NCBI GenBank assembly: GCA_023151185.1
Contig: JAKLJL010000001.1
Location: forward strand, 372,001 to 436,000
Source: Bacteroidota bacterium
GTDB taxonomy: Bacteria > Bacteroidota > JABWAT01
DNA length: 64,000 nucleotides
Direction: 5' to 3'
The notes beneath the pieces were generated by a model. The model made no database searches, was not told where the DNA came from, and saw only the letters and a program-made list of their open reading frames with translations. Numbering within the stretch: position 1 is the stretch's first letter; each line of letters opens with the position of its first letter. Shown in pieces: positions 13,576-19,212 of the stretch. Both the position numbers and the translations under genes were made by a program.

Positions 13576-13710
13576 CAGCTAATGGGTTACGTATTGGCGA
13601 TGGTGGGGCATTTGAAAAACGTCTGACCCCCTCACTACAAAAGTCCAATAGAATTACAAATGTTGAGTTTACAACTGTCAGCCCCACTATTGCCAATACG
13701 ATGTTAGCGG
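13576..13710 (-). repeat. attC-like site A (end of array)
   Basis: This 135-nt imperfect palindrome is nearly identical to site B. On the minus strand it begins with CCGCTAAC (13710-13703). Two 19-nt arms, GTATTGGCGATGGTGGGGC and GCCCCACTATTGCCAATAC, pair with two mismatches; a second inner arm (AAACTCAACATTTG) remains on one side only. The outer core at 13576-13583 is CAGCTAAT rather than CCGCTAAC, so this end is degenerate or joined to a non-cassette sequence. Confidence 0.7.
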
Positions 13711-13773
13711 CTCGTTGTTCTTCTCTTCATTTATTTTAGAGACCTATGCAGTATAGTTGTTTGTCTTATTATT

Positions 13774-14211
13774 TCAATTTGTCCTTGCCCATAGTACATT
13801 AATTATTTTCCATTCATTTTCAATCTTTGATAAATGTAAATAGTCGATAAAATTCATTTTATTCTGTGTAACTTTTACAGTTGCGATATCATTTGAAATA
13901 TCAAATATAGTTATTGTGGCTTTGAATGGTTCATTTGATTGATCAGGTTTCCTTTTAAACATTTTTGTGTTATACAGCAATTCGCTAGCCCCCATATTTT
14001 TTATCATAGAAAAGCCTAACGAGTCTTTTACAACGATTCTTTTTGCCAGCTCTGGATGTACAGCTTTTACTACTCTCTGGAAATTATTTGTATAAAAGCC
14101 CTCAATGTAATTAAGTGAAGTCTCTTTAATCAAAAGAGAATCTTTAGCTGTTTGTCCAGCAGCAATATTACTTAAGAACAAAACACAAAGTGCATAAAGT
14201 ATTTTTTTCAT
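13774..14211 (-). CDS. NTF2-like / putative lumazine-binding-type secreted protein
   Basis: A 145-residue protein with a signal peptide (MKKILYALCVLFLSNIAAGQ). The mature part has the cone-shaped SnoaL/NTF2-like pattern of the Lumazine_bd_2 group: YIEGFYTNNFQRVVKAVHPELAKR, a central helix, and C-terminal strands ATVKVTQNKMNFIDYLHLSKIENEWKIINVLW. Ligand and activity are unknown. A start at 14256 would lie inside the upstream gene; the ATG at 14211, 5 nt after that gene's stop, gives a clean signal peptide. The gene is AT-rich and shares a cassette with the serine hydrolase upstream. Confidence 0.75.
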   Translation of the reverse strand: MKKILYALCVLFLSNIAAGQTAKDSLLIKETSLNYIEGFYTNNFQRVVKAVHPELAKRIVVKDSLGFSMIKNMGASELLYNTKMFKRKPDQSNEPFKATITIFDISNDIATVKVTQNKMNFIDYLHLSKIENEWKIINVLWARTN

Positions 14212-14216
14212 ATTTA

Positions 14217-15389
14217 TTATTTTAAATAAAACGGGGTATAGTTTTCCCATTGCCATGGGGTGAATTTATCGCCAATGGCAATCTCTAAAAGCTCTTTAAA
14301 TATACTATCTCCATTATCGCTATTTGTCATTATAATAATTGCTATTTTTTTATCAGTAAAACAAATTGAGTAATGTTGCCATCCTTCATCGTTACCTTCT
14401 TTGAAAAAAGCTTTACCATATGGCGAACTCAATACTCCTATTCCGAAACCGTAACCAAGCTGAATTGGATCATTATCTGTACCATCAACCATTGAAAGCG
14501 GACCAAATTGTCGTATAGATTTAATTCTTACCTGCAAATTGGTCATTTCTTTAAACAAACTTTTCTTTAAACCTTTTCCTTTTATTAAAGCGGCATAAAA
14601 TTTTGTAAAATCTGTTAGTGTGGTACTCATTGAACCCGCAGCATTTGGCTTGGTTCTTTTGTTTGGTTTGTATGGATCCCCTTTTGAATTATGACCAAAA
14701 GACAATAGTGAATCAAACTGTTCTTTCCAAATCTGACTGCTCTGATTCATTTGAAGTGGCTTAAATACTCTTTCCTGTGAAATTGTTTCATAATCCTTGC
14801 CCAATAGTTGCTCTATTACAAATTGCAACAGAAACAAGCCTTCGCCTGAATATCTGTATCGTGTTCCAGGCTCAAACAAAAATTTTAATTTATCATCTTC
14901 TTCAAACCAGCGCCAATTAGGAAATCCAGTAGTATGAGTTAGACACATTCTTGCAGTAATTATTTCGTATCGATTATCATTTTCTAAATCCTGATAGCCT
15001 CTGTTCTTTTCTGTAAATTGATATTCAGTTAATGGCTTTTTGAGATAACTAACTAATGGCTTGTCCAAATCTATTACTTTTTCAGCTACCAATTGTAGAA
15101 CAATATACGTGAACACCATTTTGGAAAAAGAAGCTGCAACGAGGACTGAATTATCATTAAGTGGTTTTTTAGTTAAGGTATTTGAATAACCAAATGATTT
15201 GCTGTAAACAGGGTTATTATTATTAAAAATGGAAATTGCTATACCTGAAACATTAGCCTGCTTCATCAAGTAGTTTATTTTGTTATCTAAACTGTCAACA
15301 GAAATTTTTGAACCATCTATTCTGTCAACTGATTGTCCAAAAGCTGTGAAAGAATAAATAACAATAAAAATAATGCAAATATTTTTCAT
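14217..15389 (-). CDS. Serine hydrolase, class C beta-lactamase/penicillin-binding-protein fold
   Basis: A 390-residue secreted protein with a signal peptide (about residues 1-19, TAFGQ). Active-site motifs are S87-F-S-K90 (SxxK) in AASFSKMVF and Y180-S-G in YRYSGEGL, followed by a C-terminal GNDEGWQHYS region in place of the usual KTG/HxG. The family (PF00144) includes AmpC, DD-peptidases and many esterases, so beta-lactam hydrolysis cannot be assumed. It is AT-rich with strong use of AAA, AAT and ATT codons, unlike native genes in the window. It is the first gene of a two-gene cassette. Confidence 0.88.
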   Translation of the reverse strand: MKNICIIFIVIYSFTAFGQSVDRIDGSKISVDSLDNKINYLMKQANVSGIAISIFNNNNPVYSKSFGYSNTLTKKPLNDNSVLVAASFSKMVFTYIVLQLVAEKVIDLDKPLVSYLKKPLTEYQFTEKNRGYQDLENDNRYEIITARMCLTHTTGFPNWRWFEEDDKLKFLFEPGTRYRYSGEGLFLLQFVIEQLLGKDYETISQERVFKPLQMNQSSQIWKEQFDSLLSFGHNSKGDPYKPNKRTKPNAAGSMSTTLTDFTKFYAALIKGKGLKKSLFKEMTNLQVRIKSIRQFGPLSMVDGTDNDPIQLGYGFGIGVLSSPYGKAFFKEGNDEGWQHYSICFTDKKIAIIIMTNSDNGDSIFKELLEIAIGDKFTPWQWENYTPFYLK

Positions 15390-15412
15390 TTGTCTGTGGC
15401 GATTTACAATGA

Positions 15413-15548
15413 CCGCTAACGGTTTACGTATTGGCGATGGTGGGGCATTTGAAAAACGTCAACTCAACATTTGCACAAATGCACAATAGAATTACAAATG
15501 TTGAGTTTACCACTGTCAGCCCCACTATTGCCAATACGATGTTAGCGG
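15413..15548 (-). repeat. attC-like site B
   Basis: This 136-nt hairpin is bounded by perfect 8-bp cores, CCGCTAAC and GTTAGCGG. It has a 19-bp outer stem (GTATTGGCGATGGTGGGGC with GCCCCACTATTGCCAATAC, two mismatches) and a perfect inner stem (AACTCAACATTTG with CAAATGTTGAGTT). Long, paired and centrally asymmetric, it resembles VCR-type attC sites. It separates the transglutaminase and serine hydrolase cassettes. Confidence 0.75.
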
Positions 15549-16465
15549 CTGGCACTCTTCGCTTTCTTTTGTGGTTTGTCAACAAGCCATTCTAAATGTC
15601 TGTGCATTGCATTGAAAACTCTTTCAGGAACTGCAATTTGTTCATAATACTTCTTAATTTCTTCTGCATTCTCGTCTGGTTGTGTCATTAATTCTGCAAG
15701 TTCATCAAAGAATTTCAAAGTCTTTTTGTTTGTCATAGAGTTGTTTGGTCTTGGCATTCCACTCCAAGCATCCCACTGTAAAAGTTCCTGCTTTTGCATA
15801 GAAGCAACGTCTTTTACAAGATTACCTGCGATAAACCAAAGCCCACGCATTTCAGGCTGAAATATTCCAAATTTTTGTGCGTCAAGTTTACCTTGCCTGC
15901 ATAAAAGCCAACTTTCAGCAGGTCTAAAAAACTTGTCGTTTGGAACGTCAAATACATTATGTTTAATTCCTAAATTTTTAATCCAAACGTTGTCAAACTG
16001 TGGGTCAACTATAATCCAACGCTTTTCTTTTTCGTTCCAATATTCACAAACGGAATGGTCTTCATAAAACCCTGCATTAAAATAGTTGCCAAATCCATAG
16101 CGCATTCTTGCAGGTATTTCCTTAGCCCGTAAAAAACCTGTCAAGAGTTTAGAAAAGTGATGGCAAACTCCAACTATTTTTTTGTCGGAAGGTCTTGGTT
16201 TTTCAAACACAGAATTGTCAAATTCTAAAATTTTGTCAAGTAACTTATCAAAGTGTCTTATGTGAGCTTCATTTTCAATTCGCACTTCGTCAAGTTCGAT
16301 GTTATAAAACTCTGTTGCAATAAACATATGAATTGAAAGTCCTTGAACAATTTCTGCTAATTTTATAATATCGTTTGGAAGTTGTTGGACTGCCTTTTTG
16401 TGCTGCCCACTTTCAGTAAATTGTCCTGCCGTAGCAAAAAATGTATGTAAAGGTTTTTCTGTCAT
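15542..16465 (-). CDS. Transglutaminase-like domain protein
   Basis: A 307-residue soluble protein with no signal peptide. The papain-like triad is visible: C101 in VGVCHHFSKLLTGFLRAKEIP, H137 in EDHSVCEYW and D154 in IIVDPQFDN. Members of this superfamily cleave or cross-link peptide bonds, and some are proteases or peptidoglycan-related. The N-terminal roughly 90 residues and C-terminal roughly 110 residues are unassigned. It is the only gene of its cassette. Its TAA stop lies inside the conserved core of attC-like site B, as seen in integron cassettes. It is AT-rich. Confidence 0.85.
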   Translation of the reverse strand: MTEKPLHTFFATAGQFTESGQHKKAVQQLPNDIIKLAEIVQGLSIHMFIATEFYNIELDEVRIENEAHIRHFDKLLDKILEFDNSVFEKPRPSDKKIVGVCHHFSKLLTGFLRAKEIPARMRYGFGNYFNAGFYEDHSVCEYWNEKEKRWIIVDPQFDNVWIKNLGIKHNVFDVPNDKFFRPAESWLLCRQGKLDAQKFGIFQPEMRGLWFIAGNLVKDVASMQKQELLQWDAWSGMPRPNNSMTNKKTLKFFDELAELMTQPDENAEEIKKYYEQIAVPERVFNAMHRHLEWLVDKPQKKAKSASR

Positions 16466-16507
16466 ATTTAATAACTCTCAGTTGTTGTATGCTGTCTCTT
16501 ATGCTTG

Positions 16508-16601
16508 CCGCTAACGGGCCGGCGATAAAACAAGTTGCCGAAGGCAATTTGCCCGAAGGGCGTAGTGACCGAAGGGAACGAAGTTTTATTGCCTGTTGGG
16601 C
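16508..16601 (-). repeat. attC-like site C
   Basis: This 94-nt palindromic site lies between the sul-like and transglutaminase genes. On the minus strand it starts with GCCCAAC, followed by AGGCAATAAAACTT, internal hairpins (CCCTTCGG/GCCCTTCGGGC, TTGCCTTCGGCAA), the return arm AACTTGTTTTATCGCC and the core GTTAGCGG. The two cores differ because the second belongs to the next cassette, as expected at a cassette junction. It is unrelated in sequence to sites A and B. Confidence 0.7.
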
Positions 16602-17814
16602 GCTGTTAAATGGCGCGTAACCACAGCGTTTCTTTTCCCGGCCGATTCTCTTCTCTATTTGCATTGAGCGGCACTCATTAAGGGGAGTTGGTTGATTCTC
16701 TTTATTTTCAATTACCCCAATCTATTCCATCAAAACCAAGAGACCTTATTTTTCGCCTTTAAGAACTTAGTATTCCCAAGTTATAGATCAGCATAATAAA
16801 ACCGTAATCCATCTTGAAATGGTTGTCAATTACAAATTAGCAATTTAACATCCCAAGCACTTTTAATGCGTCACTTAAAGCTCTTACATCATGCGTACGG
16901 ATGTAATCCACACCCATATAGCTTATATAAATTTCAGCAGCCAGGGTCGCTGGCGTTCGCTCGTTGACTCCTCGCCCAACAATAGTTCCTAAAAAAGATT
17001 TCCGAGAAACCGAAACAAGAATTGGTAATTTAAAGTATTCTTTTACTCGAAAAATATTTTTCAAAACATATATTGACGTTTCTGGGTTAGAGCCTAAGAA
17101 GAAACCCATCCCTGGGTCTAAAATAATTCTTTCGGATGAAACGCCTGAATTTTGAAGTGAATTTATTCGTTGCGAAAAGAAATCAATTATTCCATTAAAT
17201 ATATTTTCGGGAACAGTTTCGATTACTTGGGCTTTCCCAAGCCGCTGTATGGAATGCATAACAATGAGTTTGCAATTAGATTCTGCCAATTCAGGATATA
17301 ATTCTGCGTATGGAAACCCTTGAATGTCATTTAAATAGTGGACATTCTTTTTTAAAAAATATTTTTGAACTTCGGGTTTGAATGAATCAACAGAAACTGA
17401 AATATTTTGAGAATGCAATTTGTCGATGACATCATTTAAACGGATTATTTCCTCATGAGGCTTTACTTCTTTTGATTCAGGATTACTGGAAGCGGCTCCT
17501 ACATCAATTATGTCAGCGCCATCCTTAACAAGTAGAAGTGATTTCTCTATAGCTTTATCATAATTTAAATAAAGGCCGCCATCTGAAAAGCTGTCTTCAG
17601 TAATGTTTACTACACCTAGTATTGTAGGCTTTTTTAATTTCATATGTTTTTTCACTTTAATTGCCTTTTCTATTCTGCTCTGTCTGTGGTTTTATTTCAT
17701 ATCTTTTTAATTTAATTCGCGGATTATTGTTTCCCTAAACTGTGCCGCTCGTCTTTTGTTTTTATATTTCTCGGCCGGGCTATTTATTTAACGCGCCATT
17801 TAATTGCGCCCAAC
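16595..17814. repeat. Inverted repeats bounding the sul-like gene
   Basis: Bases 16595-16618 (GTTGGGCGCTGTTAAATGG and onward) and 17791-17814 are inverted copies of about 24 bp with only a few differences, and short CCCGGCCGA blocks follow at similar distances inside. Part of this is the expected complementarity between a cassette's 5' end and its attC core. The repeat extends beyond the 7-bp core, which could also mean a terminal-inverted-repeat element. Confidence 0.7.
16837..17643 (-). CDS. Sul-type dihydropteroate synthase (sulfonamide-resistance-like)
   Basis: A 268-residue TIM-barrel enzyme that condenses pABA with pterin pyrophosphate in folate synthesis. DHPS motifs are present: N13 in GVVNITEDSFSDGG, DVGAASSNP, NDIQGFPY, VMHS, DPGMGF, SRKSFLG (K215) and IRTHD. 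Several are Sul-like rather than FolP-like: AASSNP instead of GESTRP, NDIQGFP, MHSIQR, and DPGMGFFLGSNPETS (residues 176-190) with the FF pair at 181-182, in the loop where Sul1-Sul3 carry an added Phe that excludes sulfonamides. From memory it is closest to Sul3. The gene is AT-rich and sits alone in a cassette. A GTG at 17655 is an alternative start. Resistance itself is inference. Confidence 0.85.
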   Translation of the reverse strand: MKLKKPTILGVVNITEDSFSDGGLYLNYDKAIEKSLLLVKDGADIIDVGAASSNPESKEVKPHEEIIRLNDVIDKLHSQNISVSVDSFKPEVQKYFLKKNVHYLNDIQGFPYAELYPELAESNCKLIVMHSIQRLGKAQVIETVPENIFNGIIDFFSQRINSLQNSGVSSERIILDPGMGFFLGSNPETSIYVLKNIFRVKEYFKLPILVSVSRKSFLGTIVGRGVNERTPATLAAEIYISYMGVDYIRTHDVRALSDALKVLGMLNC

Positions 17815-18051
17815 TCGTTTATATAAGCCCCTTTTATATCCATATCCTGCTATATTAGGAGGATATGAGAGATTTTGTGCTCCTTATTTTGTACTAATAT
17901 CTGGCCTTTTACCATTAAGCGCAATACAGGAAACCCCTTAATTTTCGGGGAAAAAGGACCTTAGTTTTAGGTTGTTTTATACCTTAGAAGACCTAAGGTG
18001 CCAGCCCGGCAGGCACACTCGGCGTCGGTTCACTGAACAATCCCTATTCAA
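17815..18051. other. Intergenic stretch between cassette array and 42-bp repeats
   Basis: No gene is seen. It holds small hairpins: CCCC/GGGG around 17933-17953, a CCTTAG/CTAAGG pair around 17960-18000 and GTGCC/GGCAC at 17999-18017. No recombination core or integrase remnant was recognised. Confidence 0.5.
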
Positions 18052-18345
18052 CAGTCATCGTCGTATCAAATTGATAAGCTGGCCTCTGTTTATCAGTCAT
18101 CGTCGTATCAAATTGATAAGCTGGCCTGAGTTCAACAGTCATCATCGTATCAAAATGATAAGCTAGCCTCTGCTTATCAGTCATTGTCCTATCAAAATGA
18201 TAAGCTGGCCTCTGTTTGTCAGTCATCATCGAATCAAATTGATAAACTGGCCTCTGTTGAACAGTCATTGTCGTATCAAATTGATAAACTGGCCTGAGTT
18301 AAACAGCGATCACCGTATCAAATTGATAAGCCAGCCTTTGGTGGT
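18052..18345. repeat. Seven tandem 42-bp repeats with phased 13-bp palindrome
   Basis: Units start at 18052, 18094, 18136, 18178, 18220, 18262 and 18304, exactly 42 bp apart with no slippage. Each contains the palindrome TATCAAATTGATA (at 18064, 18106, 18148, 18190, 18232, 18274 and 18316, with one-base variants) and AAGCTGGCCT, followed by a more variable tail of either the CTCTGTTTAT or CTGAGTTCAA type. Forty-two bp equals four turns of B-DNA, so all palindromes lie on one helix face. Both strands contain short open frames only because 42 is divisible by three. Confidence 0.92.
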
Positions 18346-18420
18346 TTACTGTCACCGGTCAGGTGGGGCTGCAGCCCCAACCGGAATCTGACGGGTTAGA
18401 CCGGTACCTGGTGTGAGGCG

Positions 18421-18585
18421 GGTTTAAAAACCGGCGATGATAATTTGTTTCATAACCATCAGTTTCTTGTATGCACCGGGTTTTTGGTTGAGTTCCTCCC
18501 AGTTTTCAGGGCAGACTTGCTAGCTTAATCCGTACTTGTCTATTAACCAGCCACTGACACTTTCCTGAACGCCGTTTGCAGTGAT
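18421..18585 (-). pseudogene. Decayed copy of the 3' end of the neighbouring VOC gene
   Basis: These roughly 160 bases align with 18748-18910, the C-terminal coding end of the VOC gene, with scattered substitutions. Shared blocks include GGTTGAGTTC and CCCAGTTTTCAGGGCAGA. In the VOC reading frame the conserved Trp of LSWQICPENW is a TAG stop here. The rest of the gene is absent. Confidence 0.8.
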
Positions 18586-18748
18586 AGTATTTAAATTTTA
18601 ATATGATACGAAGTGATTCGTTTTTATTCGATAAATATCCGAAAGATTTGATACGATATGAGCTTATATGATACGATAGCAGTTCGGTAAAATGCCCTGT
18701 AACTCTCTTACTTAAGCCACTATTACACCCCTATCCTGGAAGATAGGG
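18586..18748. other. AT-rich spacer with three TGATACGA motifs
   Basis: No gene is seen. TGATACGA occurs at 18604-18611, 18649-18656 and 18669-18676. The longer TTTGATACGA is also found on the minus strand of the adjacent 42-bp repeats. A CCCCTATC/GATAGGGG hairpin near 18728-18748 may act as a terminator for the VOC gene. Confidence 0.5.
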
Positions 18749-18750
18749 GC

Positions 18751-19212
18751 TTAAAAATCGGCGATCCTGATTTTCTTCATTCCCATCAGTTTCCGGAAGG
18801 CACCGGGTCTTTGGTTGAGTTCTTCCCAGTTTTCAGGGCAGATCTGCCAGCTTAATCCGAATTGATCTTTTAACCAGCCGCAGACACTTTCCTGACCGCC
18901 ATTGGCGGTGAGGGCCGTCCAGTAACAATCAATTTCTGCCTGGTCTTTACAGGGTATCATGAACGAAACGGCTTCTGTAAATTTGAACTGGGGTCCGGCA
19001 TTGATGCCGATAAACCGCATCCCCAGAATCTCAAATTCAACGGTGAGTACTTTTCCTGCAAAGTCTTTCTGAAAAGGGGCAAGTCCGTCTGCTTCAGTTG
19101 CCGGGTAGTAGGTGATGCCGGTTACTTTTCCGTCTTTGAAAACCGAGAGATAAAAGTCGGCGGCTTCTTTGGCGTTGCCGTCGAACCACAGGTTGGGAAT
19201 GATCTTGTGCAT
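18751..19212 (-). CDS. VOC family protein (PhnB/3-dmu-9_3-mt type)
   Basis: A 153-residue protein of the PhnB-like vicinal-oxygen-chelate group. Typical features are NLWFDGNAKEAADFYLSVF, GKVTGITYYP, FEILGMRFIGINAGPQFKFTEAVSF, the CKDQAEIDCYWTAL helix and CGWLKDQFGLSWQICPENW. Family members bind metal or small substrates; the exact activity is unknown and many remain uncharacterised. The start is ATG 19212. A second, broken copy of its 3' end lies just downstream (18421-18585). Confidence 0.88.
   Translation of the reverse strand: MHKIIPNLWFDGNAKEAADFYLSVFKDGKVTGITYYPATEADGLAPFQKDFAGKVLTVEFEILGMRFIGINAGPQFKFTEAVSFMIPCKDQAEIDCYWTALTANGGQESVCGWLKDQFGLSWQICPENWEELNQRPGAFRKLMGMKKIRIADF

Follow-up and report, generated by a model that had tools for sequence, protein, structure and literature searches.

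Genes of the sul type are standard markers of resistance pollution. One such gene lies in a 64,000-nucleotide stretch of DNA from a Bacteroidota bacterium, the whole of which is called the window here. Its presence raises the question of whether it is a resident chromosomal gene of this lineage or a mobile one and, if mobile, what moves it. The sequence-only reading that first drew attention to the gene had described it as a Sul-type dihydropteroate synthase (DHPS) gene, closest to sul3, in an AT-rich cassette array of a bacterium of the FCB group. It had further proposed that this divergent member could be a reservoir or distant ancestor of sul3.

The gene itself is located as follows.

16837..17655, minus strand: Sul-type dihydropteroate synthase gene, GTG start, 272 aa (or 268 aa from the ATG at 17643)

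The start of the gene had earlier been placed at 17643. That position does hold an in-frame ATG (codon 5), but the open reading frame extends to the GTG at 17655. The motifs quoted earlier, AASSNP, NDIQGFP, MHSIQR and DPGMGFFLGSNPETS, were all found in the frame, and the catalytic DHPS motifs of the encoded protein (the query) are intact by sequence check. The protein passes the dihydropteroate synthase model TIGR01496 with 258 bits against a cut-off of 163. Among relatives of solved structure, Sul3 ranks best (E 4e-98), followed by Sul2 and Sul1 (down to 1e-73), while the top FolP reaches only 7e-42. Aligned identities follow the same order, being 59.7% to Sul3, 49.6% to Sul2, 47.0% to Sul1 and 31.8% to E. 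coli FolP. The pABA loop, assessed by alignment to Sul3, contains a Phe-Gly insertion (GMGFFLG) that aligns with the insertion of Sul1-3 and is lacking in E. coli FolP.

A maximum likelihood tree was built from the query, Sul1-3, 15 FolP of the Bacteroidota group and E. coli FolP, with the FolP of Leptospira and Rhodobiaceae left out. In this tree, the query and Sul1-3 form one group with support of 100/100, outside the Bacteroidota FolP, and the FolP of the window's own host is placed among the ordinary ones. Within the Sul group, the query pairs with Sul3 at moderate support (89/80). Placement within ordinary FolP clades, which would have spoken against a Sul-type enzyme, was thus not observed. 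The motifs, the ranking of structural relatives, the insertion and the tree all bear out the Sul-type identity, and the E value, the identity and the tree pairing agree that Sul3 is the closest relative. Nevertheless, the query scores below the NCBIfam cut-offs for Sul3 (NF000296, 351.9 of 475 bits), Sul2 (272 of 575), Sul1 (262 of 600) and Sul4 (NF033502, 103.3 of 600), and it is therefore none of the four named types. On the evidence of sequence, the enzyme is a fifth lineage of mobile Sul, distinct from Sul1-Sul4. No earlier description of sul5 or of a fifth mobile sul was found in the open-licence literature.

The mobility of the gene becomes apparent from the structure of the array in which it lies. 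In the following, a caret marks the crossover point.

16515..17813, minus strand: sul gene cassette, 1,299 bp, from TTGGGC (17813) to CCCG (16515); 99.3-99.9% identical in L011-L016, with unrelated flanks
16509..16601, minus strand: attC-like site of the sul cassette, with R'' GCCCAAC (16601-16595) and R' GTTAGCG (16515-16509); imperfect hairpin, z -2.3
15420..16514, minus strand: second cassette, with a transglutaminase-core protein gene (15542-16465) and an attC (15414-15547, hairpin z -7.0)
13583..15419, minus strand: third cassette, with genes for a beta-lactamase-family serine hydrolase (14217-15389) and a lumazine-binding-like protein (13774-14256) and a degenerate attC (13577-13709)

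The description of an AT-rich cassette holds, since the GC content of the sul cassette is 37% and that of the remaining window is 48%. The placement in a cassette array of an FCB host is likewise correct, as sul is followed by two further cassettes with attC sites. When seven copies were aligned base by base, each began at G^TTGGGC and ended at CCCG^TTA on the gene strand, with differing sequence beyond. These shared crossover bounds define the cassette as 16515-17813. With G^TT bounds and an attC at the 3' end in the seven aligned copies, the sul unit is an integron gene cassette. On this reading, the gene travels as a 1.3-kb unit, with site-specific recombination at its attC making the cuts and joins at G^TT.

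A scan of genome collections found the protein at 99-100% identity in six other contexts. These are two Flavobacteriales metagenome-assembled genomes (MAGs; L011 and L016), a Chitinophagales MAG (L012), the isolate Paenimyroides aquimaris CGMCC 1.10825 (L013), Chlorobi OLB5 (L014) and Ignavibacteria UBA2373 (L015, whose assembly is G022 by coordinates). A further carrier, G058, is a single 2.84-Mb contig that was compared at the protein level only (N154D). Including the window's genome (G000), there are at least eight carriers among unrelated Bacteroidota and Ignavibacteria genomes. Because the Ignavibacteria form a separate phylum, Ignavibacteriota, according to NCBI, the hosts span two NCBI phyla. 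The carriers are mostly MAGs, and L012 and L014 are short contigs, so the weight of the comparison rests on the isolate, the G058 contig, the 1.2-Mb contig of L016 and the window's 992-kb contig. In the six other contexts, the cassette DNA is 99.3-99.9% identical to the window over about 1,300 bp, and identity ends on both sides, where the flanks range from 29 to 62% GC. A one-base gap interrupts the reading frame in the L016 copy and may stem from faulty assembly.

This distribution bears directly on the proposal that the gene is a resident chromosomal folP-type gene of the lineage and a natural reservoir or ancestor of sul3. Sul3 is indeed its closest known relative, and the gene does lie on a 992-kb contig. 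However, it is absent from genomes of the same genus and family as the host, and in a phylum-wide sample of 395 genomes only G000, G022 and G058 contained it at E <= 1e-50, with no intermediates. A resident gene would also be difficult to reconcile with more than 99% identity in distant hosts of several orders and two NCBI phyla, with bounds that are exact to the cassette, or with 40% divergence from Sul3. Because of the cassette boundaries the proposal is refuted for this lineage, and it retains only a very slight probability. At 60% identity, the enzyme is a sister and not the direct source of Sul3; the FolP of Leptospira and Rhodobiaceae have been proposed as the sources of sul3 and sul1-2, respectively (PMC6335563). 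As judged from these comparisons, the sul cassette is instead a recently spread mobile unit that has crossed orders and phyla. No clean empty site was found in same-genus genomes, where the locus has undergone rearrangement or falls on more than one contig. A near-mode search of plasmid and E. coli collections returned no match to the cassette DNA, and the best hits of a distant-mode plasmid search were to sul3, which aligned with 47% of the cassette at about 66% identity. Relatives were not encoded in viral contigs.

The genes that accompany sul in other hosts are informative about its possible function. In P. aquimaris, the order is recombinase, Tet(X), AadS, an AAC(3)-I-like GNAT, Erm(F) on the opposite strand, sul and an ArsR-type regulator. 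Tet(X), which inactivates tetracyclines, scores 871 bits against a cut-off of 750, AadS 518 against 450 and Erm(F) 588 against 575, so that all three are above their cut-offs, while the GNAT, at 92 of 200, is under its own. The resistance genes of this array, which concern tetracyclines, aminoglycosides and macrolides, are each followed by an attC-like element whose junction is G^TT. In UBA2373, the neighbours of sul are Qac-like SMR and Tet-like MFS genes, both under the resistance cut-offs. Genes resembling phage defence, namely an MkoA-like kinase-helicase, type I, II and III restriction-modification systems and DUF262-like genes, also occur near several attI-like sites or sul arrays (L106 5702-9046, L107 4797-6095, L014 14-4700, L029 7856-9598 and L046 3117-9142).

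The window's genome contains two other genes with pterin-binding matches. One is an ordinary folP on contig C27, whose product is 33% identical to the query, and the other lies within a C20 frame of 1229 aa that is probably metH. Given these, the Sul-type gene is an extra DHPS. In Sul1-3, the Phe-Gly insertion supplies a Phe that clashes with sulfonamides but leaves room for pABA to bind, and sensitivity returns when this Phe is replaced (PMC10328974). Since the query possesses the Sul1-3 loop together with the adjoining Met and Leu, exclusion of sulfonamides is predicted. A pABA pocket with this insertion would allow dihydropteroate to be made and keep sulfonamides out, and the enzyme could then serve as a back-up for the host's drug-sensitive FolP. 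From homology with Sul1-3, we infer sulfonamide resistance. Alternatively, the DHPS may be retained for a reason other than sulfonamides, such as metabolic back-up or an unknown natural analogue of pABA, with drug resistance a side effect or absent. FolP with Sul motifs is older than drug use in Leptospiraceae and Rhodobiaceae (PMC6335563), and the adjoining cassettes of the window are not known resistance genes, both of which fit such a role. Against this stand the tet(X), aadS and erm(F) genes beside sul in P. aquimaris, the Qac-like and Tet-like genes in UBA2373, the recent spread of the cassette across hosts and the folP that the host already has. A non-sulfonamide role is therefore considered decidedly unlikely, and a role in resistance is preferred.

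In canonical IntI, an extra, IntI-specific domain is held necessary for integron recombination (PMC9668308). The window's genome encodes one canonical IntI (430 bits against a cut-off of 265; L031 16106-17131) at the end of contig C5 only, and none was found beside the window array. This gene lies near the contig end, and any array headed by it falls outside the assembly. In the seven other carrier genomes, no canonical IntI scored above the cut-off. Instead, the arrays of L011, L013, L015 and G058 are headed by a tyrosine recombinase that is IntI/Xer-like, does not possess the IntI-specific domain and is encoded in the direction of the cassettes. An attI-like site, TATAAAC-GAG^TT, lies 3' of the recombinase stop (in L011, ...CGACTAG^TT), and the first cassette starts there. 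In L011, this first cassette, directly after the recombinase, is sul.

The same arrangement recurs well beyond the carriers. In 28 of 30 homologues of the L013-type recombinase from the phylum-wide sample, the attI-like motif occurs 60-117 bp past the stop, against 5.4 expected by shuffling, a count to be read with the knowledge that the motif was written from loci later counted. A promoter-like box, TAnnTTTG, is present in the first 90 bp at 11 of the 30 loci, where 1.4 would be expected. The R'' test alone uses a prediction made per locus: the R'' box of a cassette should be the reverse complement of the cassette's own start, with at most one mismatch, and starts swapped between loci provide the control. 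The predicted cassette-specific R'' is present downstream at 18 of 29 loci, against 2.6 expected. Moreover, with the window's genome and G058 excluded, 21 of 28 genomes with such loci do not have a canonical IntI. Combinations of Xer/IntI-like recombinase, attI-like site and cassettes are seen in many Bacteroidota families (L046 1885-2946, which is G000 C1, and loci L057-L086). Integrons without the IntI domain have no description in Bacteroidota that could be found in the open-licence literature.

From these observations, the mover of the cassette is probably an Xer/IntI-like recombinase without the IntI-specific domain and not a canonical integron integrase, the identity of the acting enzyme being one that we infer from sequence. 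In Bacteroidota, such a recombinase, encoded in the cassette direction, most likely inserts cassettes at the attI-like site immediately 3' of the gene that encodes it or, as would be the case in the window, at distant copies of that site. It could also be argued that canonical integron integrases move the cassette and that the Xer-like recombinases, although found beside several arrays, have no part in it, because both the cassettes and their attC sites resemble those of ordinary integrons and the IntI on C5 could have inserted the cassette in the window's genome. This explanation leaves unaccounted for the seven other carriers with no IntI above the cut-off, the recurrence of attI-like sites beside the Xer-like gene with the next cassette showing its own R'', and the 21 of 28 other genomes without canonical IntI, and it appears rather unlikely. 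In conclusion, the whole account, in which a fifth mobile Sul lineage travels as a G^TT integron cassette that is most likely moved in Bacteroidota by an Xer/IntI-like recombinase, is regarded as quite probable.

The window itself has no recombinase gene next to sul, and the cassette begins at a platform of a different kind.

17814..18005, minus strand: attI-like platform that precedes the sul cassette and ends in TATATAAACGAG^TT; one of five genome copies, 76-82% identical, with no integrase adjoining
18050..18331, no strand assigned: tandem array of a 42-bp unit (6.7 copies) next to the attI-like platform; the C21 platform copies are preceded by similar repeats

The sul cassette starts at TATATAAACGAG^TT, which is identical to the site behind the host's Xer-like recombinase on C1. 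The genome contains four exact matches to this 14-mer and no copy with one mismatch. The 190 bp that precede it are present in five copies (C11, at 17814-18010 of the window, C21:97284, C21:285508, C25:162281 and C4:61271), in which similarity stops at GAG^TT and different sequence follows each. Among the 13 genomes searched, the platform is confined to the window's genome, with none in the 12 relatives. In L016, the array starts with a second copy of the 3' end of the host recombinase and its attI-like site, at 84%, with homology ending at the crossover. We read the five copies and the L016 arrangement as putative remote attI platforms, and the platform carrying sul looks like a new variant of integron. 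Such platforms may be loaded by either the C1 recombinase or the C5 IntI. Farther along the window, a 165-bp stretch is duplicated at 82% identity (18420-18584 and 18747-18911); an intact 3-dmu-9_3-mt domain gene (18751-19212) has this stretch at its end, and the second copy next to it is degenerate.

Traces of the same recombinase family are also present in clinical plasmids. In Acinetobacter plasmids, tet(X3) is directly preceded by a truncated homologue (53% over 220 aa; L053 4001-6022). In a Klebsiella plasmid, blaVEB-3 is directly preceded by a homologous frame (51% over 249 aa; L056 4001-5763), and the site sequence there is GATATTAGGGAG^TTAGCGG. The tet(X) cassette start, TTATGTGCCATTTTTG, is common to the Acinetobacter and Paenimyroides contexts, and the preceding sequence differs. 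It is reasonably likely that Bacteroidota and their relatives harbour a widespread class of integron with an Xer-like recombinase without the IntI-specific domain, an attI downstream of the integrase gene, which runs in the same direction, and extra attI copies dispersed over the chromosome. This class would already have gathered tet(X), aadS, erm(F) and the fifth sul, and left remnants upstream of tet(X3) and blaVEB-3.

The sul cassette has already moved between orders and phyla, and one array combines it with tet(X). Because this Sul type scores under the curated Sul1-Sul4 cut-offs and was not in the plasmid and E. coli collections searched, surveillance by those models would miss it. Additionally, the arrays of the carriers point to a machinery for shuffling cassettes that has been overlooked in Bacteroidota and that would explain the presence of 'xerD' beside tet(X). 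If a class of integron without the IntI domain is real, detection tools that require this domain would miss the class.

The system resembles several known ones without matching any of them. Sul3, the plasmid-borne sulfonamide-resistant DHPS (PDB 7s2m), shares with the query the Phe-Gly insertion, the GMGFFLG loop and the catalytic motifs and is its sister in the tree, but the query is only 60% identical and falls under the NCBIfam Sul3 cut-off (352 of 475 bits). To our knowledge, Sul3 is not known as an attC cassette. Sul1 and Sul2 have in common with the query the Sul clade and the insertion, but at 47-50% identity it lies under both cut-offs. Sul4 is likewise a mobile DHPS found in an integron context; it does not possess the two-residue insertion (PMC6335563) and belongs to a different clade (PMC5732528). 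As in integrons and CALINs (attC clusters without IntI), the cassettes are small, with attC hairpins, G^TT crossover and arrays in the same direction. In contrast to these, the adjacent recombinase of the other hosts does not have the IntI-defining domain (PMC9668308) and is encoded in the cassette direction, and the attI-like site lies downstream of the recombinase and also exists as remote copies. Finally, 'xerD' genes beside tet(X) have been noted without a role, and no integron role was proposed for them (PMC7473080). The homologues directly upstream of tet(X3) in Acinetobacter and blaVEB-3 in Klebsiella correspond to these in position, whereas the arrays and attI-like sites described here suggest that such genes may have an integron role.
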